From: Clostridia bacterium
GTDB lineage: Bacteria > Bacillota > Clostridia > Oscillospirales > Acutalibacteraceae
Direction of reading: 5' to 3'
Length of the DNA: 49,276 bases
Assembly (NCBI GenBank): GCA_017513245.1
Contig: JAFXGK010000021.1
Span: 1 to 49,276, forward strand
The translations under genes and the position numbers were made by a program. The notes beneath the pieces were generated by a model. The model did not search any database. It was not told the origin of the DNA and saw nothing but the letters and a program-made list of their open reading frames with translations. Shown in pieces: positions 4,234 to 41,735 of the stretch (position 1 is the stretch's first letter; each line of letters starts with the position of its first letter).

Positions 4234-4277
4234 ATTCGTCATTAATTGTTGACGAATTATGCAAATTGCAGTAAAAT
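4234..4277 (+). promoter_or_regulatory. Promoter with inverted-repeat operator candidate, for the tubulin-like cluster
   Basis: TTGACG (4249-4254), 17-bp spacer, TAAAAT (4272-4277). A perfect 8-bp inverted repeat, ATTCGTCA (4234-4241) and TGACGAAT (4250-4257) with an 8-nt gap, covers the -35 box. This is a typical place for a dimeric repressor. No regulator gene is adjacent, so the protein that binds is unknown. Confidence 0.6.
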
Positions 4278-4311: not shown

Positions 4312-6840
4312 TTGAAACGTATAATCAGTTCAATTCTGCTGGTTTTTACAATCATGCTTTCGGTGCTTTTTGTGCCGACTGTAACGACCAATGCGGCACC
4401 GGCAGAAACTAAACGTGCGATAGCCATCGTGTTCGATAACTCGGGTTCGATGTATTTACCGTACAACAAGGACGAAAGTTTCAGAATGGCCTGGTGCCGT
4501 GCGACCTACGCAATGGAAGTTCTGGCCACTATGATGAACGCTTCGGACGAAATGTACATCTACCCGATGCATCCCATCGAAGTAGGCGGCAGTAAATATA
4601 ATTCGTCAAATCCCTTAAAGGTAACGCAGGCCACCGCATCGACGATTAGAAACATCTACACACCCGATCCCAAGGCAACCCCGATTGAAACCATCACGGC
4701 AGCACGTGAAGGTCTTAAGAAGGCGGCAGCCGACGAGAAGTGGTTGATTGTTTTAACCGACGGTACTTCGTTCTATAAGGGCGGCAAGGACCTAAAAGAC
4801 AAAACAATGGCTGAACTTAAAAATGTTCTTACCACTTGCGTGTCTGAGGTTAATACAGCATTCCTCGGAATCGGTAAGGATGCAGTTCAGCCTACCGGAA
4901 TCAGCGGAACCTACCGCTTCATATCCGAAAAGGCAAACGACAGTGCAGACGTACTTGAAAAGCTTACGGCGATGTGTAACAACATCTTCGGACGCGACAC
5001 TCTTCCCGGCAAGGGCAAGACGGTAACCTTTGACGTATCGATGAAAAAACTTATTCTGTTCGTTCAGGGTAAGAACATCAAGGACGTTAAACTGGAGGGT
5101 TACACCCCCATTGGTACCGACGAGCCTAAGTATGGTGAAAAGGGCGGCGGCGGACAAGGAAAGGACTTCACGATAGACAAGAGTCTTCAGGGCGTAATGC
5201 TTACCTTCACCGACGTTGCAGCAGGAGAGTACAAGATAAGCCACAGCGGCGACGCTACAAGCATCGTAACCTACTACGAGCCGGACATTGATATGAGCGT
5301 AGTAATCAAGGATGCCGCAGGCGAGGTTATGGATCCGAAGGAAGAGCTTACAGCAGGCACCTACGTTATCCAGTACAACCTCGTAGACCGCGACGGAAAG
5401 GAAACCAAGTCCGACCTGCTCGGTAAGACCAACTACGAAATCAAGTACACCATAAACGGTGAGGAAAAGGTGGTTAAGGCCGATAAGTCGGGCGAGCTGG
5501 AGATTGAGCTTCAGCCTAACGACACCCTTGATGGTGACTTCACGGTAACCTATCTAAGCGGCTACACCATCCACCGCACGGGACTTGACTTCGGTTGGCC
5601 CTCGGGCGGAATCAAGATGGGACCGCCTCCCGCAGGTAAGCTTGAACTTTCGCTTTCGGGCGCAGATAACAAGTATAATCTTACCGACCTCGAAAGTAAG
5701 GGTAAGATTCGTGTAAACCTCGTGTACGAGGGTAAAGAGGTAACCGGTGACGAACTTAAGCAAGTAACCTTGGTTCCCACAATGAACGGCGGTAACGCAG
5801 CCGCAACCATTGAGCAGGATGATGAAGGCTACTACGTAGCACTCGGTCCCAACGGAACCCTGGTGGACACCGAAACCGGCACCTATACACTGGGCGTAAG
5901 CGGTATTTACACCACGGTAGACGGACTTGACAGTAACAAGGCCGTAGACAAGGTTAAGTTTAAGATTTCCGACAACAGTAACCCCATCAAGATGAAGGTT
6001 ATTGTTGAGCAGGATTATTACCAGATATCCAAGCTAAAGGATGGTAAGCCGATAAAGGTTGCCTTCTCACTCGGCGGCGAGCCGCTAACCGAAGAGCAGA
6101 TGAAAGACCTGCAGTTTGACGTCGATGGCGGAAAGCTTAAGCTTATCACCGAGCGTATCCCCGGTGAATCGGCTTACTCCGTAAGAATCGACCCCAACAG
6201 CAAGCCGAAGGATGACTCCTATAAAATCAAGTTCACCGCAACCGGTAAGAACGAGATCGGCAGGGAAGTAACCGAGAAAGCGTCGGCTAAGATTCAGGTT
6301 CGCGCCTGGCCGCAGTGGTTACGCATCCTGCTCCCCATACTAATCATTCTTCTCATAATCCTCCTCATTGTTATGTATATGCGCCAAAAGGTATTACCCA
6401 AAAAGGTAGGTATCACAGGCAAGCCCGAATACATAGTAAGCGGCGACCCGGTAACGGGTGCACCGCGAATGGAGGGCAAGCTAAAGGCTAAAAAGCGCGG
6501 TGTAATTACCGTCCAGACGCCGAACTACAGCAACCCCCTCGCAAAGACGGGTGTTTCGGTAGAGGTTGAGGCTGTATCGCCCCGATACGTTGCATCAAAC
6601 AAGCGCAGAATGCGCGTTACCGCTGTCAGCCCGATTGGTAAAAACGGTGTTGAATCGTTCCAGTTTGGCAGCAAGGTGTTTAATGTTGACTACGAAACTG
6701 GCAAGTTCGTAGCACCGGGCATGAAACCGGGTGAATTCAAGCCGTATGAAGTATCGGGAACGATACCCGTTAAGGTTTACAAATCAGTCGAGGATATTTC
6801 GGTAAACTTTGACTGTAAAATAGCAGCTAAAAAGAAATAA
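4312..6840 (+). CDS. Secreted, membrane-anchored VWA-domain protein (first gene of the tubulin-like cluster)
   Basis: TTG start with AGGAGGA just upstream (4299-4306). The 842-aa protein has a signal peptide (residues 1-28) and a von Willebrand factor A domain with the metal-binding motif DNSGSM (Asp42, Ser44, Ser46) and a later Asp150 in LTDGT. Beta-rich repeats resembling immunoglobulin-like folds follow. One C-terminal transmembrane helix lies at about 669-691, then a tail of about 150 residues that should be cytosolic. VWA domains bind protein ligands through Mg2+. Next to a tubulin-like GTPase it could be the outside sensor or adhesion subunit, passing information through its tail. Start, signal peptide and anchor are clear; the ligand is unknown. 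Confidence 0.85.
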   Translation: MKRIISSILLVFTIMLSVLFVPTVTTNAAPAETKRAIAIVFDNSGSMYLPYNKDESFRMAWCRATYAMEVLATMMNASDEMYIYPMHPIEVGGSKYNSSNPLKVTQATASTIRNIYTPDPKATPIETITAAREGLKKAAADEKWLIVLTDGTSFYKGGKDLKDKTMAELKNVLTTCVSEVNTAFLGIGKDAVQPTGISGTYRFISEKANDSADVLEKLTAMCNNIFGRDTLPGKGKTVTFDVSMKKLILFVQGKNIKDVKLEGYTPIGTDEPKYGEKGGGGQGKDFTIDKSLQGVMLTFTDVAAGEYKISHSGDATSIVTYYEPDIDMSVVIKDAAGEVMDPKEELTAGTYVIQYNLVDRDGKETKSDLLGKTNYEIKYTINGEEKVVKADKSGELEIELQPNDTLDGDFTVTYLSGYTIHRTGLDFGWPSGGIKMGPPPAGKLELSLSGADNKYNLTDLESKGKIRVNLVYEGKEVTGDELKQVTLVPTMNGGNAAATIEQDDEGYYVALGPNGTLVDTETGTYTLGVSGIYTTVDGLDSNKAVDKVKFKISDNSNPIKMKVIVEQDYYQISKLKDGKPIKVAFSLGGEPLTEEQMKDLQFDVDGGKLKLITERIPGESAYSVRIDPNSKPKDDSYKIKFTATGKNEIGREVTEKASAKIQVRAWPQWLRILLPILIILLIILLIVMYMRQKVLPKKVGITGKPEYIVSGDPVTGAPRMEGKLKAKKRGVITVQTPNYSNPLAKTGVSVEVEAVSPRYVASNKRRMRVTAVSPIGKNGVESFQFGSKVFNVDYETGKFVAPGMKPGEFKPYEVSGTIPVKVYKSVEDISVNFDCKIAAKKK

Positions 6841-6877
6841 TTAATTGTTGTGAAAGCAACAGAATGGAGTGTTAACC

Positions 6878-9800
6878 ATGGCAAAAGAAAAGATTAAAGT
6901 CAACCAGGTCGAAGCCCCTACTCTATTTATCGGCGTCGGCGGTACCGGTTGCGATATCGTTAAGCGCGTTGCAGAAATGTGCCGCCCCGGCGAGACAAAG
7001 AATATAAGCTTTGTCTGCCTTGACACCAACGTAAACGACCTTTCCAACATTCAGAAGAGTGCTGCCAAGATTTATTACGTGCAAACCTCCAATACACAGA
7101 CCGTAGGTGACTACCTCGCTTACGACGAAGGCGCTCGCAGAGATTGGTTCCCCAAGAACGCCGTTATTTATGATAAGACCGTTTCCGAAGGTGCAGGTCA
7201 GGTTCGCGCTATTTCGCGTCTGGCTCTTAACGCCACCATCAAGACCGGTAAGATTCGTCCCCTTTACGATGCTATCGATGACCTTTTCCGCAAGGATGGC
7301 CGTGAGCTCAAGCAGGCTCTCCGTATCGTAATGGTATCCACCTCCTCCGGTGGTACCGGTTCGGGTATTATTCTTCCCCTCGCTATGTACGTTCGCGACC
7401 ACGTAAGCGCAAAGTATCCCAATACCAGCCTTATCGTTCGTTCGCTTATCCTCCTGCCTGAAACCCTCGACAGCGTTATCGACTCGTCGGTTGAGCGTGA
7501 CAGCCAGAGAAGAAACGCCTACGCTACCATCAAGGAAATCAACGCCTTCATGATGAAGGGCTCGGGCTTCTTAGACGTTGAGGGTGACCTCAAGCGTTAC
7601 GGCAACCTCAAGATGGAATTCCCGATTCCCGGTACCGATGATACCAAGGAACTCGGAGTCCTGCCCTTCGACTTCTGCTTCCTTATGGACGGCCAGGATG
7701 CTGAGGATACTACCCTCGTAAGCATCAGCCAGTACAAGCAGCAGGCCGCCCAGGCTCTTTACGAGCAGAACATTGGCCCGATGCAGAAGAACGCCTTCTC
7801 GGTTGAAGACAACATCATCAAGGAAATGTCCAACCCCGGTAACTTTGGTCGTAACCGTTTCGGCGCTATCGGTGCCAGCGTTGTTGCTTACCCCTATGAA
7901 AAGGTTGCTGACTACGTAGCTTACGATTGGGCTATTAACAGCATCGGCGGCGAAGGTGAGGCTGCTAAGTGGCTCCGCTATGACAAGGAATTTGAGCTTA
8001 AGCGTGAGGAAGGCCGCAAGAAGGGCCTCTCCGAGAGCGAAATGCCCAAGCGCGCCGACGTTTATATCGAAAAGCTCAATACCTCTTCCGATAACTTCAG
8101 TAAGGATATGCGCAGCCGCTATCTCGGCGAATCGGGCAGAAAGCGCGTAACCGCATATATCAGCGAATTAAACAAGTACATAATGCAGTCTGTTTACGCT
8201 CAGAAGGATATCAGCATTGCCCAGTCGGCAGCTAATGCCCTTCAGGCTGAAATCGATTTCAAGAGTGAGTCCGCACAGCCGGCCAGCGATTATCTCGATG
8301 CATTACGTTCCTTCGAATATGCAGTAAGAAAGAATGCAAAGCGCGTAGCAGAGGGTGTTGCCGAAGCAGCCTTCCGCAACGATAAGAAGACCGTTAACAA
8401 CAACGCTCCTTACTGCCTTGAGTTCCTTCTTAAGAACGCCTATAAGGAGATTGCACACCCTGTTGCAATGCGTCATCTCCTTTACTCGGTATACGAGATC
8501 TTTGAGAAGCGCATTAAGGACCTTACAATGAAGGATACCGTAAGCAACCTCGACGTATACAGTGAGGAAGGCAATGCCGATAAGTACAACGTTAAGTTCG
8601 GCAAGAGCACTTTCGGTTCTCTTGAGGCTCTCTGTAAGGCAGAGGTTAAGGATCCCAGCCTTGGCGATAAGCTTAAGGGCTGCGAAAAGATTCACGAGCG
8701 TCTTAATGAGATATTCCCTGAGTACTATCAGGCTATCACTGCTCACGCTGAGCGCGAGGCTCTCCTTGCCGCATACCAGATCGGTATCGAGTTTGTTCGT
8801 CAGCTCAATGAAGCATTCGAGCGCTTCTTTGCAACCTTCACCGAGAAGGTTGGCAACCTCAACCGTAAGAAGGGTGACCTTGTTGATGAGCTTTCCTTCC
8901 GCAAGGGTGACTCTACCTTTAATATCTGCAGCTCTCGCGAACTTCTCGACGAGCTCAGTAACTCCACCAAGAACCAGGCTTCCGAGGGCGCACTGCTCGA
9001 TTCCGAGGCTAACGGCGATATCTTCGACGCTATAAAGAAGAACGTTGAGTTCGAGCGCGAGATTCAGGCTATGGAGGTTGTCGAGGAAGACCGCAGAATT
9101 GACATTTTCGATGACGTTCTTGTTGGCTACTTCAAGAAGGACGTTCGCCGCAAGTGCAGCGATACCATCGACGTAAACATCATCGAGGCAATCGCTCTTG
9201 AGCAGCGTCTCCTTGCCCGAATCAAGACTCGTGACGAGAACGAAGAGGGTGAGAAGGTATTCGATAAGGTAACTAACGAGGATAAGGTTCGCCACATTCT
9301 CGAGGTTATCGCAATGGGTCAGCGTCTTGCAGCACCCAGCGTTCAGCGTATGCGTAACGTTGAGTCCCGCGAAATCAGCCTTTGCGCTTACAACCGTTCG
9401 CTCGACGATATGCGCACCTTCCGCGTTAAGGAGCTTATGCCCAAGGGCAACTCGGTTGACAGCGTTTCCAAGTACGAGCTTCGCTTCTTCAACGCACTTT
9501 ACAACCTCACTCCCGATAAGCTTAATAAGTTTGCTGCTGCCCGTCAGATGGAGACCACCAAGCGTCGCAGCGGTCTTTACCACAACGCATACATCGAGTA
9601 TGCAAAGGATATCGGACCCGACTCCACCAAGGGCTCTAAGATTTCTACCCATATCGACAAGCGTTGGGATTCTATCGCTGTTATGCCTGAGCTTGACCTT
9701 GACTATCAGAGAGCAGAAATGCTTAAGATCCATCAGGCTATGATTTACGGTCTGGTATTCGATGCTATCCGTCACTGCAAGTATTCTCTCACTGCAGACG

Positions 9801-10426
9801 ATAAGATGGTTTACAAGTATCGTAACTCCGACGATATCGACGTTTCTCTCGCAGTTTCCAACAACACTCCCTGCGACGAGTTCTACGAGATCGTTGACTC
9901 GCTCTACATCAGCTCCTTCGTTGTAAGCGATATCGACGTTATCAAGGCTAAGAAGAACTACAAGGATAGAATGCATCACGCAAACTATGCCGAGACCGAG
10001 TTCAAGAAGGCTCTTGACAAGTTCGTTATCGATGAGATTCGTGAAGGCTTCGAGATCCCCGAAGGCGAGAAGAGCTCACTCTTCGAAATTCCGGTATACT
10101 ACTATGCATCCCTGCCCAACAATAAGCGCTTCTTAGGCGAGATTTCGGCCATCATCGACGCCGTTATCAAGACCTTCGAGGACGAGCTTCTTATGTGGGA
10201 AGAGAAGGATGACGTTAAGTTCGTACTTTGTAAGATTCTTGACGAGCAGTATAACATTCTTATGGAAAACTATGAGAAGTATCCCAAACTGAGAAACAAC
10301 TACTCTGCAAAGGATAACCCGGTAATCGACACCATCATCAGAAAGATTACCGCTATCGTTGAGTCTACTCCCGAACCGTCCGATTACAAGTCCATGATCG
10401 AAAAGATGAAGGAAAAAGTAAAGTAA
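6878..10426 (+). CDS. Large tubulin/FtsZ-like GTPase (Tubulin_2 / FtsZ-like family)
   Basis: The ATG at 6878 has GGAG 8 nt upstream; the in-frame GTG at 6869 has none. Near the N-terminus, FIGVGGTGCDIV (17-28) matches the first nucleotide loop of FtsZ and tubulin. CLDTN (about 50) fits the second strand. SSGGTGSG (156-163) is the tubulin signature loop that grips the phosphates. RRNAYATIKEIN follows, as in tubulin-like proteins of this class. The other 800 residues are mostly helical, and I recognise no further domain. At 1182 aa it is about three times FtsZ length. No obvious catalytic T7 aspartate loop was found by eye, so hydrolysis is uncertain. It lies between a VWA protein and large membrane proteins, an arrangement that recalls the FtsZ-like families proposed for membrane remodelling. 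Confidence 0.85.
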   Translation: MAKEKIKVNQVEAPTLFIGVGGTGCDIVKRVAEMCRPGETKNISFVCLDTNVNDLSNIQKSAAKIYYVQTSNTQTVGDYLAYDEGARRDWFPKNAVIYDKTVSEGAGQVRAISRLALNATIKTGKIRPLYDAIDDLFRKDGRELKQALRIVMVSTSSGGTGSGIILPLAMYVRDHVSAKYPNTSLIVRSLILLPETLDSVIDSSVERDSQRRNAYATIKEINAFMMKGSGFLDVEGDLKRYGNLKMEFPIPGTDDTKELGVLPFDFCFLMDGQDAEDTTLVSISQYKQQAAQALYEQNIGPMQKNAFSVEDNIIKEMSNPGNFGRNRFGAIGASVVAYPYEKVADYVAYDWAINSIGGEGEAAKWLRYDKEFELKREEGRKKGLSESEMPKRADVYIEKLNTSSDNFSKDMRSRYLGESGRKRVTAYISELNKYIMQSVYAQKDISIAQSAANALQAEIDFKSESAQPASDYLDALRSFEYAVRKNAKRVAEGVAEAAFRNDKKTVNNNAPYCLEFLLKNAYKEIAHPVAMRHLLYSVYEIFEKRIKDLTMKDTVSNLDVYSEEGNADKYNVKFGKSTFGSLEALCKAEVKDPSLGDKLKGCEKIHERLNEIFPEYYQAITAHAEREALLAAYQIGIEFVRQLNEAFERFFATFTEKVGNLNRKKGDLVDELSFRKGDSTFNICSSRELLDELSNSTKNQASEGALLDSEANGDIFDAIKKNVEFEREIQAMEVVEEDRRIDIFDDVLVGYFKKDVRRKCSDTIDVNIIEAIALEQRLLARIKTRDENEEGEKVFDKVTNEDKVRHILEVIAMGQRLAAPSVQRMRNVESREISLCAYNRSLDDMRTFRVKELMPKGNSVDSVSKYELRFFNALYNLTPDKLNKFAAARQMETTKRRSGLYHNAYIEYAKDIGPDSTKGSKISTHIDKRWDSIAVMPELDLDYQRAEMLKIHQAMIYGLVFDAIRHCKYSLTADDKMVYKYRNSDDIDVSLAVSNNTPCDEFYEIVDSLYISSFVVSDIDVIKAKKNYKDRMHHANYAETEFKKALDKFVIDEIREGFEIPEGEKSSLFEIPVYYYASLPNNKRFLGEISAIIDAVIKTFEDELLMWEEKDDVKFVLCKILDEQYNILMENYEKYPKLRNNYSAKDNPVIDTIIRKITAIVESTPEPSDYKSMIEKMKEKVK

Positions 10427-10449
10427 GAAAACTTTAAATTGAATTACTG

Positions 10450-10471
10450 CCCACCGCCTTCGCGCGGTGGG
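10450..10471 (+). other. GC-rich hairpin inside the operon
   Basis: CCCACCGC (10450-10457) pairs with GCGGTGGG (10464-10471). No T-tract follows, so it is more likely an mRNA stability or partial attenuation element between the tubulin-like gene and the next gene than a terminator. Confidence 0.65.
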
Positions 10472-10495
10472 TGGAACGGACGGAGGTGAGTACCG

Positions 10496-12496
10496 TTGTT
10501 TACCGTAATAATAGCGGAAAGAGAATATATTGATAAAAAAGACGAATATCAATCGTTCTTAAGCCCTTTCTTAGATGAAAAGAAGGTAGCCTTCTGCGAA
10601 TGGGATAAAGATAAAGAAACCTTCGCAGAGATGGTTCCCGCCATCTTTGAAACCGTCGGAAGAAGAAAAGAGTGGCGTGCCGTTATAGTCTGTGACGAGA
10701 GCGGACTGAATCAAAAGAATCCTTTCGATTTGGTTACCGAACTCCCCACAAAACTTAACGCTCCCATCGGAACCGATGCCAACAGCGAAATAGGCATAGC
10801 TTACGAGGCCCATCAAAAGGCCGAGCACGAAAAGAAACTTCGCGCCTACGAGCAGGCATCGAAAAACGCTTTGACTCGACTTGTTACATTCCTTTGTGAT
10901 GCTCCTACGGCAACCATGCCCGAAAACGCACTTGACTGTGATACCGAGTATCAGAGATACGTTGTAGAAATCCAGCGCAAGCAGGAGCTTCGAGCAGCTA
11001 TCCTCAAGGATGAACACATCGAAACTTCTAAGCCTACCGAGGTAATCTGCGTTGCAAAGCGCACCTGCCCCGAAGTTACTGCCGATTACGGCACCGTATG
11101 GGAGTCGCACGACGAGGAGGAATACTCCCGCTTCTACGACAGAAATATGTATTTCGACAGAATGAGATATTTGATTTTCGATATTCTGCCGAGAGACCAA
11201 AGAAACTACAAATTCGACTATATCAGATTCTTATATGCTACTATGCTGCTGGCTGCAAACGACGTTCCGGGTGGTTGCTTAAGCGCCAAGCGTATATATC
11301 AGTTGGTATGCGACACCGATGAGGAAGCCCTAAGACGTCTGCTTTACTCGCAGGAGGCTAAGCTTAACCTCACCGAGGAATATCTTAACCAGCGCATATA
11401 TGATATCCAAAGAGCAGTTCCCAAGCGACTGTCCGACCGTGAAGCTAAAAACCTTTTCGGTTCCAGCGCCATGGTTCCGGTATTGCTGGATGAGAACGTA
11501 GAACTCGATAAACTGTACGTTAAGGATAATCGAATCGGACTTGCCAACGGTTGCCCCCGTGAGGAAGAATCGGTGTGGGAAGGCGAGTACTACAAATCCA
11601 AGAAGGAATTTGCATTACTGCTTAAGCATTCACGCCGTTCGCTCAAACGAGCAACCAAAGGCGTTCGCGATAACGAGGATCCGGATTTAAGCAACGTTCA
11701 GTACTTAAACGAGTATCAGCTCGAGGACGCTGTTGAGTATATCGACAACGAAGAAAAGACCATGGTCGAAAATATACCGCCTGATTTATATAATGAAGAA
11801 ATTTATTATAAAAAGCTCTCTGCAGAGAACAAGGCGGTACGAAACAAGGTGCGTCAGCGTATGTATCGCAACTCCACACTCGTGGTTGGCGCGTTGGCAC
11901 TGCTGGCATTTGCCCTTGGCTTCTTTACATTATTTATAAATGTAGGCGATTCCGATTTGCTTAATCTTTCGGCATCGGGAATCATCCTGCTTGTAGCAAT
12001 CGGAGTAATGGTTGTTACGATAATTGCAACCTTATTCTATCTGCGTTGGACCTTGGTTCGTCTTTTTAAGAGATACAACCGAACCATGCACGGAATTTAT
12101 AACGATATTCACGGCGCAATGGAAAAATGCTCGACCTATCTGGGCCACATTTGCAACGTTCGCCGCGGATTCGCAATCCTTAACGCTTCATCCGCTAAGG
12201 AAGATCCCGCACGCGCTAAGGTAATACTTTACCGTAAGCACATTACGGATATCAAGATTGCCAAGGCAAAAACAAGAGAAATCTTCGGTCACTTTATGAC
12301 CGAGCCCGTATCTGGCGCTATTGAAGAATCGGAATACGATTACGATTTCAACCGTCCCGTAGAATATGATTATCCCTTCCCGTATAACGAGGAGCGTAAA
12401 GCCAATATCGACTTTATGCAGCCGGGTCTTCGTGTTCCGGTGCCGGTAGATTTCGTTAAGAGTCTGACTGTAAGGAGGGAAGAGATCTATGATTGA
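10496..12496 (+). CDS. Cluster protein 3: large soluble domain with two transmembrane helices, unknown function
   Basis: TTG start with a strong GGAGGTGA about 6 nt upstream. This 666-aa protein has an N-terminal soluble region of about 455 residues, two membrane helices (about 462-484 and 494-520) joined by a short loop, and a C-terminal soluble part of about 145 residues. I recognise no domain. Both ends should be on the same side, most likely the cytosol, where they could contact the tubulin-like GTPase. It lies 69 nt after that gene and overlaps the next by 8 nt, which points to coupled translation and a shared complex. Confidence 0.75.
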   Translation: MFTVIIAEREYIDKKDEYQSFLSPFLDEKKVAFCEWDKDKETFAEMVPAIFETVGRRKEWRAVIVCDESGLNQKNPFDLVTELPTKLNAPIGTDANSEIGIAYEAHQKAEHEKKLRAYEQASKNALTRLVTFLCDAPTATMPENALDCDTEYQRYVVEIQRKQELRAAILKDEHIETSKPTEVICVAKRTCPEVTADYGTVWESHDEEEYSRFYDRNMYFDRMRYLIFDILPRDQRNYKFDYIRFLYATMLLAANDVPGGCLSAKRIYQLVCDTDEEALRRLLYSQEAKLNLTEEYLNQRIYDIQRAVPKRLSDREAKNLFGSSAMVPVLLDENVELDKLYVKDNRIGLANGCPREEESVWEGEYYKSKKEFALLLKHSRRSLKRATKGVRDNEDPDLSNVQYLNEYQLEDAVEYIDNEEKTMVENIPPDLYNEEIYYKKLSAENKAVRNKVRQRMYRNSTLVVGALALLAFALGFFTLFINVGDSDLLNLSASGIILLVAIGVMVVTIIATLFYLRWTLVRLFKRYNRTMHGIYNDIHGAMEKCSTYLGHICNVRRGFAILNASSAKEDPARAKVILYRKHITDIKIAKAKTREIFGHFMTEPVSGAIEESEYDYDFNRPVEYDYPFPYNEERKANIDFMQPGLRVPVPVDFVKSLTVRREEIYD

Positions 12497-15400
12497 TAAG
12501 ATTATATTCCTCCTTAAGGTCCTCGCCTTTGTATTGCCCTTTATTCTGCTGGCGTTGCTCAGCAATAAGGCAAACCTCAAAAAGCAGGACCGCAGCCGTC
12601 AGTGCTATATGCCCTTCGTGGCAGTGGTATACTGCCTCATCACGGGAGCAATAATATCGCCCATAATCAATCTGGTTATGGACTTTATCAATAAGATTCC
12701 CGTATGGCTCAATCGCTTTGCCGATTGGCTGGCAGGACTCTTCAGCGGCAAGCTTGTAGCAGTTGCCGACTGGATTTCCAAGATGATGGACAAATTCGAG
12801 CATATGCTCGAAACAATCGACCTCACCCTTTGGGCAGGCCTGCTTGTAAACATCTTCATCATCGGCGCCTTTATTGCGTTTAAGGCACCGGTTATCAGAT
12901 TCCTTAAACTCTTCTGCAAAGAGGGTAAAAAGCATTACGAAACCTTCGCCGGACTTGTATATTATAAGGACGGTCGCAAGGGCACCTGGTTCGTAAAGGA
13001 TACCTTTACTCAGGGCGTACTGCTGCTTAAGGTTTTCTATATCGTGACCCTTATTCTTGCCCCCATAGGCGTATGCGTTACCGCATTTATGTTTGATCAC
13101 GAGCTTACCTCGTCGCTCTTCTATCCCGTATTCAGCGTAATAATGGTTGGTGAAGTTTATTTCTACTTCAACGGCCGTTTCAACGAACTGCAGGAGGGAA
13201 GCCTTGAAGGCGAGCGCGAGCACGCAAGCGAAATCTGTGACTATACCCTTATGCGTAACGTTCTGCGTCGCAACTTCGGCGATAAGCTATTAGGTGAAAA
13301 CACCACCGTAAACAACGACCTGCTTTACTATCGTACCAACGACGAGCTGTTAAAGCTCCTCGAGGAGGACGACGATGCAGCCGTTGAATCCTACGGTAAG
13401 TTTATGCATAAGAAGACGCTTGCCGGTCTCGAACTTGATCAGAACTATCTGATGTCGGGACTTGAGCTCTTAAAGGGCAGAAGCATACTCTTTAACAACC
13501 CCTTCTATTACGACCTCATTCCTTATGCCTTCTATCCGATGAACCGCGCTATTCTGCGCCGTAAAAAGGTGCTTATAGTTCTCGGCCGCCACGCGATAGA
13601 GGACGAGATAATGCAGTGGTGTAACGAAGGTCTTACAGCAGTAAACCATATGCCCGAACTTTGGAGCATAGAGGTGCTTGATGCGGCCGGTTCTAATCCC
13701 GACGTCGGTATTATTACCCGCTCGCAGGTACACGACCTTAAGCTCCACGAAGCAAACGAAGCCTTCTTTAAGGACGTTGAATTCGTTATGCTTATCGAGC
13801 CTTCAAAGCTGGTATCCACCGCGCAGATCGGTCTTAACTCTCTCGTGCGTCACTGCCGCAGAGACGGTAAGAGGCTCGTCTTCTGCTCCACCGATAAAAA
13901 CTGTGACGGTATAGTTGATGCGCTTTCGCACATCCTTATGACCAGCCTCGAAGCAGTTTCGGCAACCAAGCGTCACGGCGGCACATCCTCTTATATGTGC
14001 TGGGAGGTTGACGAAGACCATCTGCAGCACCGTATGCTGCCCAACCTCACACGCTACCTCGGCGTTGGTACCGAGCTTTCGTTTACCGCACTTAAAAACC
14101 AGATATCCAAGACCTATTGGTACGGCGGCGACGCGTTCCCCGTACGCGATATGCACTGGATTGTTAAGCAGTACCATTATGACCTGCTCAACTATGCGGC
14201 ACTTCCCACACAGCAGACCCTTGTGGACGAGGTCTTCGAGGCAACGCCCAATATGTGGAAGTCCAACGTTGAGGACTACAAGTACATCACCGTTGAAGAC
14301 GAAAACTACAATATGTTTGAGGTACAGCGTGAGTTCTCTACCCGTGCAAAGAAGCAGGGCTTTATAAACGTCGTATCGTCCGACTATCTTTTGAAGGACT
14401 ATATGGCTGCCAACGATTCGATATTCCACGCCGATTCTAAGGCAATACCCTATATCGTAGCCGACTATGCCGGCACCGAGCGAAACATCATCTACCGAAT
14501 CTGTCTGCGTCTGAGTTCCTATATGGTGCCCGAGAACGAGATTGCGCGTGAGCTTTCGCTTATCGATATGGATACCGAGAATATCGCCGACACCCTCTGG
14601 AAGAGCATTTGTAAGTGCTCGCAGAGCGCAGGTCTGGCAGACGTAAACGGTGAAGAAGAACTCCACATAACCAAAAACGGCAAAAAGTACGTATTTGGCC
14701 CCGGAGTTATCAAATTCACCCGCAAGTATTCCTTCAAAACCGGCGAGCTTGATAATTTCTACAGCATCGATAATAAAGAATTTGTTGACGTATTCTTGGG
14801 TGACCTCTGCAGCGCAGAGTACATCGCAGAAGACGAAAAGGGCGATACCCAGTACCTCGGCAGTGAGCTTCGCGGTCAGGTGTTCCAGAAGTATCTGCCC
14901 GGTCAGTTCTTTACCTTCGGTGGTAAGTATTATGAAATGCTGCGTCTAACCGCCGACGGAACGGTAGTTGTCCGTCGTGCAGCCGACCATATTAACGGTC
15001 GTCCGCAGTATCGCCAGATAAGAAACTACACCTTAAGCAACGTTCAGGATACCGGCGTTATGGGTGATATTAAGGATATTGGCGGCATTAAGGTTACAAA
15101 ACAGAATGCCGATATCTTGGTTGAAACACCCGCATACTGGAGAATGAGTCGTTATAACGATTTTGCTACCGGTAAGCGCATCACCTTAAACGGCGTACCC
15201 AACCGTGAATACCACAATAAGCAGATACTTAAAATCGAATTTGGCGATAAGGTATCGGCTGAGGTTGTTCACACTATGACGCTGCTTATAAACGAAATTT
15301 TCCGTACTCTCTATGCCGACAATCAGGGTATGATTTCGGCAGTATGCGCAGGAGAACTTGATGCTCCGTTTACCTACTCGCTTGCAGGCGCAGACGGCTA

Positions 15401-17204
15401 TGTTCCGTCCGAAAACAGCATCTATATCATCGAGGACAGCCAACTTGATATAGGTCTGCTCGTAAGCGTTGAGCGTAACCTTAACCGTATTTTCTCTATA
15501 ATGTGCGACTATCTTAAGTGGCACACCGAGGCATACGAGGAAAGCATCAATCCTCCGAAAGAGGAGACCGAAAAGCCCGACTACACCAATCCTGAAGAGG
15601 GCGATAAGCCCAAGAAGGAAAGAAAGGGCATCTTTAAATTCTTTGCTAAGATTGGCGGCTTCTTTAAGAAGCTGTTCTCCAAGATTGCTGCATTCTTCAA
15701 AAAGCTGTTTGGCCGTAAGAAGAAAAAGGACAAGCCTGTTGCCGAGGGCGCAGGAGAAGGAGTCGAAACCGCAGCAATTCCCGTGGAGGGTGCTGACGGT
15801 GTTGAGTATACTCCCACCGAGGAAACCGAGGGCGAGGATACTGCCGCTCTGGACGGCGAGGAGATGGATGCTCCCGCTGAAGCCACTGATGAGGAAACCG
15901 ATACCGCGTACGTAGACGGTGAAACACCCGACTATGACGAATTCGGCACCGATGAAGAGTCGGATACCGAAATCACCGACCAAGACGACACCGTCACCGA
16001 TGAACCCATCGATGAGGAAACCGCAGAGGACGGCGATTCTACCGAGGTTACCGACGAGGAAACCGAAGAAGAGGATGAAGAAACTATTTCTAACGAAAGT
16101 ATGATGTTCTTCAGCATTTCCGCACCCAGATACTTAGCCAACACAGCCCCCGAAGACGGCGCTGCAGAGGCTCCTGAAACAGCGGAAGAGCCTGCCGCCG
16201 AAGGCGAAGAGGCAGAAACCCCCGAGGCACCTGCAGAGGGCGAAACACCTGCCGAAGGTGAACCCACTGAAGGTGATACTGAGGGTGAAGCACCCGCCGA
16301 GGGCGAACTCGAGTTTGAACCCGCAGGTGAAACCGCCGTACGCGAGGGCGTCAAGTACGAGCGCAAGCCCTATCACGAGCGTTTCTATATGCTCTACGGC
16401 TTCGATGCTATTCCCGAATCGCTTAACGTTACGGCAACTCTTGAAGCATTAACCGGCCTTGGCTACGATAATGGCTTCTTAGAGCAGGCCCGTAAGGGCA
16501 AAAACGTTGCCGAGAATATCGAAAAATCCTTCGATCCCAACCGCGCAAACAGCCACTACTGTGACTTCTGCGGAGTTGAACTTCTCGGTACCGAATACGA
16601 AATTCTGGCTGACGGCCGCGAACGTTGCATGAGCTGCGGTCGTACCGCCGTTAAGACAGAGGAAGAGTTCCGCAAACTTTATGAAGACGTTATCCGCAAC
16701 CTCAAGGTATTCTACGGCGTAGTAATTAACGAACCCGTAAAGATCCAGATGGTTAACTCCAAAAAGCTGCACAGCCGTCTCGGCAAGCAGTTTGTTCCCA
16801 CCGGCAAGGCCGACGGACGTGTCCTCGGCGTAGCTATTAAGGATAAGGACGGATACAGTCTCCTTATTGAAAACGGTTCTCCGCGAATCAGTGCTACCTT
16901 GACTATGGTACACGAGCTGACCCACATTTGGCAGTACATTAACTGGGATGCCAAGGAGATAAAGAAGCTGTACGGCGCTTCGCAGAACCTCGAAATTTAC
17001 GAGGGTATGGCAAAATGGAGCGAAATTCAGTACGCCTATCTTATCAATGAGTCGGTTACCGGCAAACGTGAGGAAATCCTCACCACACTTCGCGATGACG
17101 AATATGGCAGAGGCTTTGTTAAGTACGTCTCGGTATATCCGTTGTCCGAAAAGGTACAGTTGGAGGGCGAAACACCCTTCACTAACCCGAAAAAGCCGTT
17201 GTAG
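12489..17204 (+). CDS. Cluster protein 4: 1571-aa multi-pass protein ending in a DA1-like zinc-ribbon/peptidase module
   Basis: About five membrane helices lie in residues 1-230. A large soluble region (about 230-1020) follows; parts such as KKVLIVLGR and FVMLIEPS loosely resemble strands of a P-loop or helicase fold, but no Walker A is seen. Residues 1047-1082 form basic amphipathic helices (GGFFKKLFSK type). Residues about 1085-1300 are a very acidic E/T/P/D/A linker. The C-terminus has a four-Cys zinc finger (CDFC ... CMSC, about 1358-1382), then HELTH (1475-1479) and a downstream EGMAKW Glu1505. HExxH-x25-E after a LIM/treble-clef-like finger is the layout of DA1-type gluzincin peptidases. 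The gene overlaps protein 3 by 8 nt. Confidence 0.75.
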   Translation: MIDKIIFLLKVLAFVLPFILLALLSNKANLKKQDRSRQCYMPFVAVVYCLITGAIISPIINLVMDFINKIPVWLNRFADWLAGLFSGKLVAVADWISKMMDKFEHMLETIDLTLWAGLLVNIFIIGAFIAFKAPVIRFLKLFCKEGKKHYETFAGLVYYKDGRKGTWFVKDTFTQGVLLLKVFYIVTLILAPIGVCVTAFMFDHELTSSLFYPVFSVIMVGEVYFYFNGRFNELQEGSLEGEREHASEICDYTLMRNVLRRNFGDKLLGENTTVNNDLLYYRTNDELLKLLEEDDDAAVESYGKFMHKKTLAGLELDQNYLMSGLELLKGRSILFNNPFYYDLIPYAFYPMNRAILRRKKVLIVLGRHAIEDEIMQWCNEGLTAVNHMPELWSIEVLDAAGSNPDVGIITRSQVHDLKLHEANEAFFKDVEFVMLIEPSKLVSTAQIGLNSLVRHCRRDGKRLVFCSTDKNCDGIVDALSHILMTSLEAVSATKRHGGTSSYMCWEVDEDHLQHRMLPNLTRYLGVGTELSFTALKNQISKTYWYGGDAFPVRDMHWIVKQYHYDLLNYAALPTQQTLVDEVFEATPNMWKSNVEDYKYITVEDENYNMFEVQREFSTRAKKQGFINVVSSDYLLKDYMAANDSIFHADSKAIPYIVADYAGTERNIIYRICLRLSSYMVPENEIARELSLIDMDTENIADTLWKSICKCSQSAGLADVNGEEELHITKNGKKYVFGPGVIKFTRKYSFKTGELDNFYSIDNKEFVDVFLGDLCSAEYIAEDEKGDTQYLGSELRGQVFQKYLPGQFFTFGGKYYEMLRLTADGTVVVRRAADHINGRPQYRQIRNYTLSNVQDTGVMGDIKDIGGIKVTKQNADILVETPAYWRMSRYNDFATGKRITLNGVPNREYHNKQILKIEFGDKVSAEVVHTMTLLINEIFRTLYADNQGMISAVCAGELDAPFTYSLAGADGYVPSENSIYIIEDSQLDIGLLVSVERNLNRIFSIMCDYLKWHTEAYEESINPPKEETEKPDYTNPEEGDKPKKERKGIFKFFAKIGGFFKKLFSKIAAFFKKLFGRKKKKDKPVAEGAGEGVETAAIPVEGADGVEYTPTEETEGEDTAALDGEEMDAPAEATDEETDTAYVDGETPDYDEFGTDEESDTEITDQDDTVTDEPIDEETAEDGDSTEVTDEETEEEDEETISNESMMFFSISAPRYLANTAPEDGAAEAPETAEEPAAEGEEAETPEAPAEGETPAEGEPTEGDTEGEAPAEGELEFEPAGETAVREGVKYERKPYHERFYMLYGFDAIPESLNVTATLEALTGLGYDNGFLEQARKGKNVAENIEKSFDPNRANSHYCDFCGVELLGTEYEILADGRERCMSCGRTAVKTEEEFRKLYEDVIRNLKVFYGVVINEPVKIQMVNSKKLHSRLGKQFVPTGKADGRVLGVAIKDKDGYSLLIENGSPRISATLTMVHELTHIWQYINWDAKEIKKLYGASQNLEIYEGMAKWSEIQYAYLINESVTGKREEILTTLRDDEYGRGFVKYVSVYPLSEKVQLEGETPFTNPKKPL

Positions 17205-17219
17205 TCATCTTAATGCAAC

Positions 17220-17280
17220 GCGGTAGCAATTACCGCACGACGCAAAGCCGCGCAGGTATGCAATAGCGTATCTGTGCGGC
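17220..17280 (+). other. Two hairpins between cluster genes 4 and 5
   Basis: GCGGTA/TACCGC (about 17220-17236) and a 15-bp G-U-tolerant stem (17247-17261 with 17266-17280) lie in the 108-bp gap. There is no T-tract. They may stabilise or separate transcripts; no clear promoter is seen here. Confidence 0.55.
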
Positions 17281-17312
17281 ACTTGCGCGAAAAAAGGGAA
17301 GAGGGTAGAAGC

Positions 17313-19250
17313 ATGCTTTGGTATATAAGTTTGTTCCTGTCGATAGCGGTGTTGGCAATTATTTTGCGCATAGCAGTCGATAAGCGCAAGGGTAAAACGC
17401 GCATAGTCTACGTTATGTTAGGTTGCTTTGCGGTTACCTACTTACTGTATTTGCCTCCGTTTTTGGCCCAATACGATAATTTGGCAGCAATCTTAGGCGG
17501 CTTTATAAATGCGCTTCAGGTAATCACGCTCGATGCCGATTATCTTCAGTTCTATGACGTTATAAAGAGCGAAGTAGGCGTTGCCTTCCTTACGAACGCT
17601 TATTATTTCCTGCTTGCATTTATCCATATTGCTCTTCCGCTTGTATCTGCATTAACCGCCGTAACCCTTATTATTCAGTACATTTCCGGTCTGCAGATGA
17701 AAATGATACGCCGAAGAAGAAAAACGCTTCACGTATTTTCCGAACTTAATAACGAGGCTATAGTTTTAGCCCGCAGCATCAGAGAAAACGATAAAAAATG
17801 CGAAATAGTTTTCCTTGATATAAAGGACAACTCCGCAAACAACGATAACCTAAATCAAGATCTTCAAAGCTACGTTCTTAACGAGCATATCGAATCAGTA
17901 AAAGCGCGCGCCAAAAAGCGCAAGGTTTATTATTACTGCATCTCCGCCGACGAGGAAGAAAACCTGAATTCCGCACTTGCAATTCTTTCCTTCCTCAGCA
18001 ACCACCCTCAGGAAATCCAGCGTAACAACTACGTTACTCTGTTTTCTACCGACCCTGCGGTAGAACTTATGCTCGATTCTATTGAAAAAGGTTCTGTAAA
18101 CATCAGCATCGTAGATAAGAATCGAACTGCTTCCTATCGATTATTACAGGAACACCCCCTGTTAAAATACAGCGAAAACGGCGAAATTAACGTTCTGCTT
18201 TGCGGCTTTACCAGCGTTTCGCAGGCGGTATTGCGTGCTATATCCTGGTGCGGTCAGCTACACGGCTACCGCCTTACCGCAACCGTTATAGGCCAGGATT
18301 TAGAATGGTCTGCCGCCGATTTCAAGGCCGATTTCCCGGGCCTTTTCACCGAAAGATACGATATTAATTTTATAGATTACAAAAACGAGGTTGAGTTTTT
18401 TGAAAAGTTAAATAAAACCGACGTAAACTTCACCTACGTTGTCGTATCGGAAAACGATTTCAGAACTACGATTGAGCGTGCAATCGATTTAAGACGCTTT
18501 TTCTACACAACGGATAAAAAATTCGAAAAAGCGCCTCCGATTTTCGCTTATATCGAAAACACCCACAAGGCCGAAGCCGTAGCCGCGCTTGCCACCGCAG
18601 AATCAAACCCTGCCCGCAAGATGCATTACGATATTACACCCTTCGGTACCACCGAAAGCGTATATTCGTTTAAAAACATTACCGGCTCCGATATAGAAAA
18701 CCTCGCCCGCAATATTCACCTCGTTTACGAGGATATATTCAGCGACGGTCCCATCGACGTAAACGGTGCGCTCAAGCGCTACAATATGTTTGAGGTTAAT
18801 AAAAATTCCAGCCGCGCAAATGCGCTTCATATCCGCTATAAGCTTTTAATGCTGGGCCTTGATTATGCCGAGCAAACCGAGGCTGAGGAGGTTGAGCTTG
18901 AGGATTACCTCGATGCCAAAATACTCGAACTTTTAACCTATGCCGAGCACGACCGTTGGATGGCCTTCCTCGAAAGCGAAGGCTGGATATCCTCGAGCAT
19001 CGAGCAGGTAAAGGCCTATCAGGCTTCAGGCATCAGCAGGGGCAGACATAACTGTCCCATCATCAAAATGCATCCGTACATTTGCCCGTTTGAGGAATTA
19101 CCCGGGCGAAGCGAGCAAATGGGTCTTCCCGATTCAACGGTATATGACCGTGAGCTCATTGCCCGAATTCCCGATATTCTTCACGATAAGTGGGGAACTG
19201 CAGGCAAAAAGTATAAGATAATTAAATCCGACATTGAAATCGGCAATTAA
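17313..19250 (+). CDS. Cluster protein 5: membrane protein with TrkA-like Rossmann domains and a RyR-like domain
   Basis: The ATG at 17313 has GGAAGAGGG upstream; the frame is open earlier but has no ribosome binding site. The 645-aa protein has three or four N-terminal membrane helices (within residues 3-125), then two Rossmann-like regions beginning about 139 (LHVFSELN) and about 292 (INVLLCGFTSVSQAVL). These resemble TrkA-N/RCK domains of K+ channels but have degenerate glycine motifs. The C-terminus has AEHDRWMAFLESEGW (about 543-557), then HPYICPFEEL and YDRELIARIPDIL, matching the pattern of prokaryotic RyR domains, which are known to be fused to TrkA-like domains. It may be a ligand-gated sensor or ion-flux regulator for the cluster. 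A terminator follows. Confidence 0.75.
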   Translation: MLWYISLFLSIAVLAIILRIAVDKRKGKTRIVYVMLGCFAVTYLLYLPPFLAQYDNLAAILGGFINALQVITLDADYLQFYDVIKSEVGVAFLTNAYYFLLAFIHIALPLVSALTAVTLIIQYISGLQMKMIRRRRKTLHVFSELNNEAIVLARSIRENDKKCEIVFLDIKDNSANNDNLNQDLQSYVLNEHIESVKARAKKRKVYYYCISADEEENLNSALAILSFLSNHPQEIQRNNYVTLFSTDPAVELMLDSIEKGSVNISIVDKNRTASYRLLQEHPLLKYSENGEINVLLCGFTSVSQAVLRAISWCGQLHGYRLTATVIGQDLEWSAADFKADFPGLFTERYDINFIDYKNEVEFFEKLNKTDVNFTYVVVSENDFRTTIERAIDLRRFFYTTDKKFEKAPPIFAYIENTHKAEAVAALATAESNPARKMHYDITPFGTTESVYSFKNITGSDIENLARNIHLVYEDIFSDGPIDVNGALKRYNMFEVNKNSSRANALHIRYKLLMLGLDYAEQTEAEEVELEDYLDAKILELLTYAEHDRWMAFLESEGWISSSIEQVKAYQASGISRGRHNCPIIKMHPYICPFEELPGRSEQMGLPDSTVYDRELIARIPDILHDKWGTAGKKYKIIKSDIEIGN

Positions 19251-19262
19251 ATAACCTTAAAG

Positions 19263-19289
19263 ACGGCATCCGCGTGATGCCGTTTTTTT
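19263..19289 (+). terminator. Intrinsic terminator closing the tubulin-like cluster
   Basis: ACGGCATC (19263-19270) pairs with GATGCCGT (19276-19283), followed by seven T's. Confidence 0.9.
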
Positions 19290-33353: not shown

Positions 33354-33911
33354 ATGGCTGAATATTATTTAATATCGCAGTTGCCGTCTTTGGATGGAAT
33401 AAGTGAAAATACTCCGCTTCCGATTACCGAAGAGCGATTTACAGAACTTTGCAAACGCTTTTTAGGAAAAAGATCGCAGGAGACAATGGAAAAGCTCACT
33501 CTATCGCCTTCCAAAAACAAAGAGTATTCGGGGTCTGCTTTGATTGATGCCTGGAACGAAAGCGAGAGAAATCTTAGATTTGCGCTTGGAAAAGTTCGGG
33601 CGGAGAAAATGAAGAAAGCGTTTGACACGGGAAACAGAATTTTCCCCGTGGAATATATCAAGGCGGCGAGCGCTGCAATGGAAATTGAAAATCCAATGGA
33701 AGCAGAAAAATATCTAAACAGTTACCGATTGGAAATTTTAGAAACGCTAAGGCCCATGGATAGCTTCTCTGAGGATTATATTTTCTACTACGGACTTAAA
33801 TTAAAATTGCTTCTTCGCATAAGGCAGTTTGATACAAACAGCGGAAAAGAGGCATACAAAAATATATACGACTCTATTTTAAATGGAGATAGGTTGGAGG
33901 CAAAACAATGA
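33354..33911 (+). CDS. DUF2764 protein of the V-ATPase operon
   Basis: This 185-aa soluble protein begins YYLISQLPSLDG and has a helical body (NESERNLRFALGKVRAEKM). Proteins of this start and position are the DUF2764 family found in bacterial V-type ATPase operons of the Bacteroides/spirochaete type. It may replace the missing subunit C as the adaptor between rotor and membrane ring, though that is inference. It lies 5 nt after subunit E and overlaps subunit A by 4 nt. Confidence 0.8.
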   Translation: MAEYYLISQLPSLDGISENTPLPITEERFTELCKRFLGKRSQETMEKLTLSPSKNKEYSGSALIDAWNESERNLRFALGKVRAEKMKKAFDTGNRIFPVEYIKAASAAMEIENPMEAEKYLNSYRLEILETLRPMDSFSEDYIFYYGLKLKLLLRIRQFDTNSGKEAYKNIYDSILNGDRLEAKQ

Positions 33912-35677: not shown

Positions 35678-36975
35678 GAGTGAATAAAGTATATAATCGA
35701 ATAGAATCCATTACCGGTAACGTTATCACTGTCCGAGCAAATGATGTTAAGTATAAGGAACTGGCACAGATTAATACACGTTTCGGCAAGTCCCTGGCTC
35801 AGGTTAATAAAATTGAGGGAGATATTGTTTCTCTGCAGGTTTTTGCCGGCGGTCAGGGTGTTTCAACGGGAGATGAAGTGCGTTTCCTCGGCCACGAAAT
35901 GAGAGTGTCCTTCGGCGAGGATTTATTGGGCCGCATATTCAACGGTTCCGGTGAGCCGAGAGATAAAGGCCCCGCCCTTACAGACAATATGCAGCCTATC
36001 GGCGGGCCTTCCGTTAATCCTACCAAACGTATTCTTGCCAACCGAATGATGAGAACCAACATTCCTATGATTGATATGTTCAACACCTTGGTTGTTTCTC
36101 AGAAACTCCCCATTTTCTCTATTTCGGGTGAGCCGTACAACCAACTTCTTGCCCGAATTGCAATGCAGGCAGAAGCCGATGTAATCGTTCTTGGCGGTAT
36201 GGGCCTTAAATACGATGATTTTCTTTATTTTAAGGATGCGCTTTCCAAGGGTGGAGCACTCAGTAAAACCGTTATGTTTATTCATACTGCGTCCGATCCT
36301 ACCGTTGAGTGTATGATGATTCCCGATATGGTGTTGGCGGTAGCAGAGCAATTTGCGCTTCAGAATAAAGACGTATTGGTGCTCCTTACCGATATGACCA
36401 ACTTTGCAGATGCTATGAAGGAAATTGCTATTACGCAGGAACAGGTTCCTTCCAACCGTGGATATCCCGGAGATCTGTATTCTCAGCTTGCAGCCCGCTA
36501 TGAAAAGGCGGTTGACTTTGCTGATTCGGGTTCGGTTACCGTTTTAGCCGTTACCACAATGCCCGGCGATGACGTTACTCATCCCGTTCCCGATAATACG
36601 GGATATATTACCGAAGGCCAGTATTATCTTAAAGGCGGCCGTATAGAGCCGTTCGGTTCTCTTTCCCGACTGAAGCAGAACGTAAACGGTAAAACACGAA
36701 AAGACCATCGAGCGCTTATGGATGCCATGATTCGTCTTTATTCTTCCTATAAGGAAACGCTTGAAAAGAAAAATATGGGCTTTTCCATGAGCCGATGGGA
36801 TGAAAAATTACTAAAATACGGCGAACTTTTTGAAAGCAGGCTAATGTCGCTGTCGGTTAATCTTCCGCTTGAAGCTGCGCTTGATTTGGGATGGGAGATT
36901 TTGGCAGATTGTTTTGAAAAAGATGAAACCGGAATCAAGTCAGACCTTACTGATGAATTTTGGCCTAAAGGTTAA
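35674..36975 (+). CDS. V-type ATP synthase subunit B
   Basis: This 433-aa protein has [24 protein letters not shown] and [10 protein letters not shown]...[28 protein letters not shown]. It lacks a Walker A loop, as expected for the non-catalytic B subunit, which completes the ATP site from A. Start ATG overlaps subunit A. A strong AAGGAGG sits after its stop and serves subunit D. Confidence 0.97.
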
Positions 36976-36989
36976 GGAGGTCTGTAGTT

Positions 36990-39541: not shown

Positions 39542-39553
39542 AGGAGAATCATT

Positions 39554-41724: not shown

Positions 41725-41735
41725 AATATAACTCC

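Follow-up and report, generated by a model that had tools for sequence, protein, structure and literature searches.

A four-gene array of clostridia sets a Tubulin_2-family protein beside a VWA protein and a membrane protein with a predicted metallopeptidase module

The FtsZl1 proteins, their vWA partners and the hypothesis that such systems remodel membranes were defined by Makarova and Koonin in 2010 (PMC2875224). In FtsZl1, the authors could make out no structural elements that contribute to filaments, although they still think filaments likely (PMC2875224). Tubulin_2 proteins are described as sparse in distribution and irregular in architecture (PMC9871819), and our literature searches turned up no paper on the function of Tubulin_2/FtsZl1 proteins. 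Here, we analyse a stretch of 49,276 nucleotides from a Clostridia bacterium (GenBank assembly GCA_017513245.1, contig JAFXGK010000021.1; hereafter the window) using genome scans, profile comparisons, alignments, hydropathy and structure prediction, and describe an array in which genes for a VWA protein, a Tubulin_2 protein (TUB) and two membrane proteins, C and D, form a four-gene core, accompanied in the window by an optional fifth gene for a protein with a RyR domain. The host genome is a 1.7-Mb draft, 91.5% complete, in which the array sits on contig C33.

A pattern-based scan of 84,980 species genomes for TUB returned 59 loci, a lower bound, and their neighbours were identified by tblastn with the five window proteins and by extraction of open reading frames. 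The loci are mostly from Clostridia, Clostridiales, Oscillospiraceae or Lachnospiraceae of animal guts, and two are from Solobacterium and Erysipelotrichaceae. At all 59, the VWA gene lies upstream of TUB and directly precedes it. C follows TUB in 54, the contig stopping first in four of the other five, and D is present in 53, the contig stopping first in five of the other six. Wherever the contig permits, VWA, TUB, C and D keep a constant order on one strand; the single real exception is L056, where the TUB reading frame has just 391 codons. The reading frames of C and D share 8 bases in the window, which is the commonest C–D junction (32 of 48 measured, window included). The first-pass annotation of the window had proposed a neighbourhood survey of whether all five genes always travel together: the four genes do so, in order, wherever the contig permits, L056 excepted, but the RyR gene does not. 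Because it is near only 12 of the 59 loci, and in varying places, the unit is a four-gene core with an optional RyR gene. A five-gene unit was rejected on this count and since just one of the four D-bearing genomes of the class sample has the RyR gene.

In that even sample of the class (291 genomes), the D core occurs in four genomes and Tubulin_2 in 11, nine of them over the cut-off; all four genomes with a D core hold Tubulin_2, in the fragmented G228 on different contigs. An even sample of the phylum yielded the D core and the peptidase module of D in 2 of 299 genomes each, the same two. Tubulin_2 is present in five of 60 genomes sampled from the GTDB family, where L098 and L100 carry VWA-TUB-C-D besides the window. 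Other Tubulin_2 loci of the three samples either are without C and D (L094, L096 and L097) or lie on a contig that ends early (L099), and only L096 among them matches the VWA profile. These samples overlap the 59-locus set (L100 repeats L045, and L101 repeats L009). The segment L096:5633-15051 has a different Tubulin_2 arrangement, with a VWA gene, two tandem Tubulin_2 genes and a neighbour containing VCPYCF, while L099:438-5929 encodes a DASGSM-motif protein followed by one Tubulin_2 gene. A tree of 68 TUB domains groups the TUBs of the set in a single clade (support 0.84) made up of 62 rows (60 distinct; five on contigs ending before D) and of L095, whose contig is cut off.

The second gene is assigned on its sequence, beyond chance, to the Tubulin_2/FtsZl1 family, and the distant tubulin/FtsZ-type GTPase domain recognised at first pass is borne out by a profile match. 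TUB matches PF13809 (Tubulin_2) with an E value of 4.2e-52 and 178 bits, against a gathering cut-off of 27, over positions 1-353 of the 356-position model, and this is the one Tubulin_2 match in its genome. Our alignments, with the window counted, cover 32 of 60 loci for TUB, 28 of 60 for VWA, 34 of 55 for C and 33 or 34 of 54 for D; those of D omit split, contig-cut and some other copies, and one (A7) leaves out L032 for its long insert. In the 32 aligned TUBs, the columns of the T1 glycines (GxGGxG) and of T4 (GGTGSG) are invariant; a regular expression finds T4 in all 32 and T1, when sought among the first 60 residues, in 31. About 800 residues lie C-terminal to the GTPase domain, and the protein has no membrane helices. 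We reject TUB as the division FtsZ, as it scores 18.5 bits with the FtsZ model TIGR00065 (cut-off 295.2), whereas the canonical FtsZ of the host scores 409.8 bits and lies on another contig, C47.

The first gene is predicted to encode a VWA protein that is secreted, spans the membrane once and has its metal site intact. DxSxS is invariant in the 28 aligned proteins, and so are the metal-site residues D42, S44, S46, T123 and D150; VWA_2 of Pfam is matched by four of the 28 aligned relatives, and the window copy has no VWA Pfam match. A secreted VWA protein with a C-terminal membrane helix had been proposed: secretion and membrane anchoring stand, but hydropathy puts the transmembrane helix at residues 665-697, behind the signal peptide and ahead of a tail of 145 residues. 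Protein C, with a conserved N-terminal half, a two-helix hairpin (residues 459-524) and a conserved C-terminus, appears to be a conserved membrane-hairpin protein of no known family. Its window copy matches no Pfam family over the cut-off, and no Pfam family is found in more than five of the 34 members at 0.01. By hydropathy, the earlier description of C and D as two large multi-pass proteins fits the polytopic D but not C, and the membrane association proposed for the whole machine holds. A sequence search for solved relatives gave nothing useful for VWA, TUB, D, the D core or the peptidase module, and found no solved relative of C.

Overlooked in the first-pass annotation were the metallopeptidase module of D and a possible degenerate SF2 core. 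D is laid out as hydrophobic helices in the first 204 residues, a core (residues 322-1020), a variable acidic linker and a C-terminal module; mean column identity is 59% in the core (33 sequences) and 61% in the module (34 sequences). The module is predicted to be a Cys4 plus HExxH...E metallopeptidase of gluzincin type. All 34 sequences keep the four cysteines, and all keep HE[LM]THIWQ...[ED]GM with about 22 residues between the two parts, 33 as EGM and one as DGM. BSP and DA1 peptidases have a motif of the HExTHxWQ...EG type, and DA1 carries a LIM domain. Scanned member by member, the 34 modules give weak Pfam matches to DUF6782 in 33 (best E 2.1e-5), to DUF6055 in 32, to BSP in 31 (best E 6.4e-5) and to DA1-like in 14 (best E 0.0041, among members other than the window copy, which is unlisted). 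The window module reaches 12.3 bits with BSP, against a gathering cut-off of 23.8, and exceeds the cut-off of none of these families. Eight loci have a split D made of two neighbouring reading frames, the second of which matches D only from a residue between 1165 and 1294 to the end; some of these pairs may be assembly frameshifts. The most diverged relative, L093:5565-13965, has TUB, C (E 1.4e-9) and a 996-residue D that ends without the peptidase module. Because of this D and the eight split ones, the peptidase is a separable module, either gained by an older core or lost from it. It apparently lies at the cytosolic side.

What is the core of D? We regard it as probable that it has a degenerate Lhr-type SF2 helicase fold without the ATP-binding loop, as suggested by the spacing of motifs, by profile alignments that run co-linearly and by the order of strands in a structural model. 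Within the core, the stretches RSILF, KVLIVLG, DVGIIT, VEFVMLIE and RLVFCST begin at residues 10, 39, 84, 109 and 141; in L078, an Lhr-type helicase, motifs I, Ia, Ib, II and III have strands that begin at 40, 72, 122, 149 and 186, so that the spacing resembles that of L078 with the catalytic residues gone. A confident AlphaFold model of the core built from 33 sequences (mean predicted local distance difference test score, pLDDT, 84.5; predicted template modelling score, pTM, 0.86) has strands at 11-14, 39-44, 85-89, 109-115 and 143-147; helices lie between them, and their positions match those of the five stretches. Walker A is absent from its expected place in 34 of 34 D proteins (two matches in L032 are elsewhere in the protein), which led us to reject an active helicase, and DExH is missing as well, unlike in Lhr-type helicases.

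Profile alignments with hhalign were made against seven small helicases (L078-L084) and later against all 17 Lhr-type ones. The region of motif II aligns with E 0.0081 and the Lhr beta part with E 0.0024, which are weak as scores. An initial 17 controls (reversed, shuffled or unrelated) reached at most 23.9, against real scores of 32.7 and 36.5, but larger control sets reached the real scores. With sets of two and 11 helicases, the real score was above all 30 controls in each of the four comparisons, by a narrow margin in two, and we prefer the test with 17. The placement of the alignments is better evidence of kinship than the scores: in four of four comparisons, which are not independent, the top two separate alignments fall close to a single diagonal (offset differences 6.5-9.5), and of the 59 controls that yielded two alignments none came within 20. 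These controls cover one of the two queries, and 101 of 160 gave fewer than two alignments.

Several results count against kinship with helicases. Real scores of 39.0, 36.5, 32.9 and 32.7 compare with 35.6 for the highest of 40 shuffled controls; controls above the real score numbered 0 of 60 and 1 of 60 with the seven small helicases, and 1 of 60 and 3 of 60 with all 17. When smaller helicase sets were used, two comparisons placed the second-best alignment close to the diagonal (offset differences 17.5 and 21.5), and the other two placed it far away. Pfam scans of single D cores gave at best WH_Lhr, in 3 of 33 (best E 0.13). We temper our confidence because three of the four comparisons with 60 controls have at least one control above the real score, and because of the two off-diagonal cases. 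The DISARM-like helicases L085 and L086 gave no match.

TubZ, which is tubulin-like, moves or positions plasmids. It is mentioned in PMC2875224, and one could picture an Lhr-like D core that still binds DNA or RNA at the membrane while TUB moves or positions it. The possible Lhr-type kinship and a conserved basic stretch in D, RRAADHIxGRPxYRQxR, would suit such nucleic-acid handling; with Walker A gone, no DNA-binding partner recognised by Pfam among the five proteins and no plasmid match, we hold it to be very improbable.

The optional gene gives a RyR-like membrane protein, as noted at first pass, by its family profile: built from ten members, this matches solved RyR domains at 7.9e-11 (ryanodine receptors) and 4.3e-5, and bacterial RyR structures such as 3nrt at 6.1e-5, although the window copy alone lacks a listed PF02026 match at E 0.1. 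Weak matches to PF02026 occur in three of the ten members and to PF02254 in two. As in the window, L012 and L050 have the gene directly 3' of D. It lies further downstream in L014, L040 and L043 and upstream in L002, L008, L018, L024 and L025, and it is on the other strand in L005 and L042. Identity to the window copy is 34-42% in L012, L025 and L050 and 21-25% in the other six aligned copies. Of 33 loci whose sequence 3' of D is long enough (window included), three have a RyR gene there (the window, L005 on the opposite strand, and L043 two genes off), seven a CASTOR/POLLUX-like gene, one (L012) both, and 22 something else; the CASTOR/POLLUX label comes from two tested members, whose matches to PF06241 (1.6e-4 and 0.003) are weak and stay below the cut-off. 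In three loci, a small lipoprotein-like gene of 155-173 codons (cluster F10; Table 1) is directly 3' of D.

At L002:1261-5929 and L025:2555-7312, the RyR gene, a gene with TIR and BspA-type leucine-rich repeats (TIR-LRR) and a CitMHS-type transporter gene are found in this order directly upstream of VWA-TUB-C-D, as called by Pfam scan in L002 and by clustering with it in L025. L024 has a TIR-LRR gene beside or after its RyR gene, upstream of the operon, and a member of the TIR cluster is nearby in L013. Phage RyR-domain proteins bind or cut cyclic ADP-ribose signals made by TIR proteins (PMC13232231), which suggests by analogy that the RyR protein may sense such a nucleotide. One might then see in the array a conflict or anti-phage defence system in which VWA and TUB sense infection and the metallopeptidase and the channel-like RyR protein are the effectors, with TIR-made ADP-ribose as a signal in some lineages. 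The RyR domain family, the TIR-LRR neighbours and the patchy distribution speak for this. TIR genes are near only four of 59 loci, however, with part of the neighbours scanned; only one in four D-bearing class genomes has a RyR gene; and the single PADLOC match among the five proteins (PDC-M18B) is at 0.037, on which ground we reject a known defence system. D also has no match in plasmid or phage collections or, in one pattern scan, in viral contigs, and the G+C content of the cluster (0.485) is near that of the remaining window (0.466). We consider a defence role quite unlikely, and a mobile element or an origin from plasmid or phage was rejected as the main explanation on these last two grounds.

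How might the parts work together? In our working model, which we put forward tentatively and at somewhat less than even likelihood, the array is a clostridial vWA/FtsZl1 variant in which VWA senses, TUB and C relay, and the protease of D is the output. The VWA ectodomain would bind a surface factor or report the state of the envelope, and the signal would pass through its cytosolic tail, if this reaches TUB, to the Tubulin_2 GTPase. TUB would then assemble or change its nucleotide state at the inner face of the membrane, together with C, and the core of D, moved by TUB and C, could free the tethered metallopeptidase or direct it at a protein in the cytosol or close to the membrane, the degenerate helicase serving as a scaffold or ligand-binding domain. 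In some lineages RyR or CASTOR/POLLUX-like, channel-like genes may join the operon as regulators or extra outputs. Taken to its full extent, the model would be a previously undescribed signalling machine: a VWA receptor on the outside would trigger a tubulin-family GTPase, and this GTPase would control a membrane-tethered metallopeptidase by way of a dead helicase that serves as a switch, either mechanical or ligand-sensing, with ion-channel-like modules that can be exchanged; this full version is speculative and on balance unlikely. Certain points count against the working model: mirror-tree (distance) correlations between core genes, which reach 0.83 for C and D, fall to a low 0.40 for TUB and the peptidase module; L093 indicates that core function can dispense with the protease in places; and the membrane topology is a prediction from hydropathy.

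A membrane-remodelling cytoskeleton, as put forward by Makarova and Koonin, is the principal alternative. TUB filaments or rings would be tethered by C and D, VWA would couple them to the wall, and the protease would just edit or disassemble the complex. The same pairing of vWA and FtsZl1 with membrane partners (PMC2875224) and the membrane helices that hydropathy finds in C and D agree with this; yet it would leave a peptidase motif kept in 34 of 34 sequences without a central role, and the filament elements that could not be identified in FtsZl1 temper it as well, for all that filaments are thought likely (PMC2875224). We see this cytoskeleton as possible but on the unlikely side. Since D carries a metallopeptidase module and a possible degenerate SF2 core, we rate a protease output no less likely than a role that is purely cytoskeletal. 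A further option is that the machine inserts, displays or matures VWA or a related surface protein, with the D protease clearing failed products. That the VWA gene directly precedes TUB at 59 of 59 loci, and that protease and membrane parts are present, would accord with such assembly or quality control, but VWA has its own signal peptide and transmembrane helix and should take the general export route, and the protease appears to be cytosolic; we judge the idea decidedly unlikely.

The positions of the features under a protease-output model, as under its alternatives, are collected in Table 1. All five reading frames lie on the plus strand with short intergenic gaps or overlaps, exactly where the first-pass annotation had placed them. 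Its boundary signals fared less well. The promoter-like site at 4249-4277 belongs to a class that is no commoner than chance (20 found against 19.0 expected), and we rejected promoter strength as evidence. A terminator-like hairpin, ACGGCATC-CGCGT-GATGCCGT followed by a T run, can be read in the sequence 3' of the fifth gene but is missing from the list of the terminator scan. Elsewhere in the window are ordinary V/A-type ATPase genes (33908-39979; two alpha/beta-type subunits, D, I and C/K by Pfam), two minus-strand genes with a cadherin-like and a dockerin domain (40195-43502) and a DNA/RNA non-specific endonuclease gene (PF13930; 27658-28596).

Table 1. Features of the array and related genes (window positions unless a locus is named)
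Feature	Position	Strand	Basis
VWA protein, 842 aa: predicted signal peptide, extracytoplasmic VWA and beta-rich regions, one transmembrane helix, tail	4312..6840	+	Open reading frame calling, hydropathy
Approximate VWA domain, aa 36-230	4417..5001	+	Conserved DNSGSM...T...DG motif; limits by eye
TUB, Tubulin_2/FtsZl1-family protein, 1182 aa	6878..10426 (alternative GTG start 6869)	+	PF13809
Tubulin_2 GTPase domain of TUB	6923..7939	+	PF13809 positions 1-353; T1/T4 loop columns
Protein C, 666 aa, predicted membrane-hairpin protein of no known family	10496..12496	+	Open reading frame calling
Membrane hairpin of C, aa 459-524	11870..12067	+	Hydropathy
Protein D, 1571 aa, polytopic membrane protein with possible degenerate SF2-like core and predicted metallopeptidase module	12489..17204	+	
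N-terminal membrane helices of D, aa 1-204	12489..13100	+	Hydropathy
Core of D, aa 322-1020, lacking Walker A; possible degenerate SF2 helicase fold of Lhr type	13452..15548	+	AlphaFold model, motif spacing, hhalign (suggestive)
Predicted Cys4 and gluzincin-type metallopeptidase module at D C-terminus, aa 1285-1571	16341..17201	+	Alignment of 34
Cys4 zinc-finger-like motif of D (C1358, C1361, C1380, C1383)	16560..16637	+	Invariant
HELTH (H1475-H1479) to presumed third ligand E1505 of D	16911..17003	+	Alignment
RyR protein (optional): membrane helices, Rossmann-like region, C-terminal RyR domain	17313..19250 (alternative GTG start 17274)	+	
Approximate RyR domain	18930..19140	+	Alignment and family profile
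Intrinsic terminator-like hairpin and T run, 3' of fifth gene	19263..19289	+	Read from sequence
Cluster F10 lipoprotein-like genes	L004:11290-11757, L014:20034-20549, L048:16981-17502		

The array points to an unstudied kind of bacterial envelope machine. Tubulin_2/FtsZl1 proteins have been known since 2010, and the interest here lies in D and in the strict minimal set of VWA, TUB, C and D fixed in this lineage, rather than in the tubulin-like protein; the predicted metallopeptidase module offers a testable catalytic output. If our reading of the D core is true, the array links tubulin-family GTPases, Lhr-type helicase folds and BSP/DA1-like peptidases, classes seldom joined. Living strains may exist, because the genomes of L009 (Pseudoflavonifractor) and L057 (Flavonifractor) are not marked as metagenome-assembled. 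Bacteroides capillosus is now, we presume, placed in Pseudoflavonifractor. Since a reviewer names this species among the genomes of PMC2875224, a member of the group was probably in that genome set. The first-pass suggestion that the partner set may be undescribed holds so far, as no description of VWA, TUB, C and D together turned up in the open-licence literature. The words protease, helicase, ryanodine and channel are absent from the main text of PMC2875224, and C or D may be among its unnamed associated families.

In conclusion, the array can be set against four groups of known systems. Bacterial RyR-domain proteins (PDB 3nrt and 4n05) and the phage RyDEP share the RyR domain by family profile, whereas the RyR protein here has membrane helices and a Rossmann-like region and is optional to the operon. 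The BSP (PF04450) and DA1-like (PF12315) peptidases have in common with D the HExTHxWQ...EG-type motif and weak matches (31 of 34 and 14 of 34 members), but the module of D stays under the gathering score and is fused to a membrane protein in a tubulin-like operon. Lhr-type SF2 helicases (PF19306) resemble the D core in the strand spacing of motifs I, Ia, Ib, II and III and in two regions near one diagonal, and differ in that D is membrane-anchored, has neither Walker A nor DExH, and gives scores near those of shuffled controls. Closest are the FtsZl1/Tubulin_2 systems, which, as presented in the main text of PMC2875224, have the same GTPase domain with a long C-terminal extension, an adjacent vWA gene, membrane partners and a canonical FtsZ elsewhere. 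The P-loop GTPase, protein kinase and OmpA domain of those systems are not recognised by Pfam in the five proteins here, where we find instead protein C and a D protein with a dead-helicase-like core and a predicted metallopeptidase module. The array is a clostridial variant of the vWA/FtsZl1 (Tubulin_2) systems, and what is new in it are the partners C and D.

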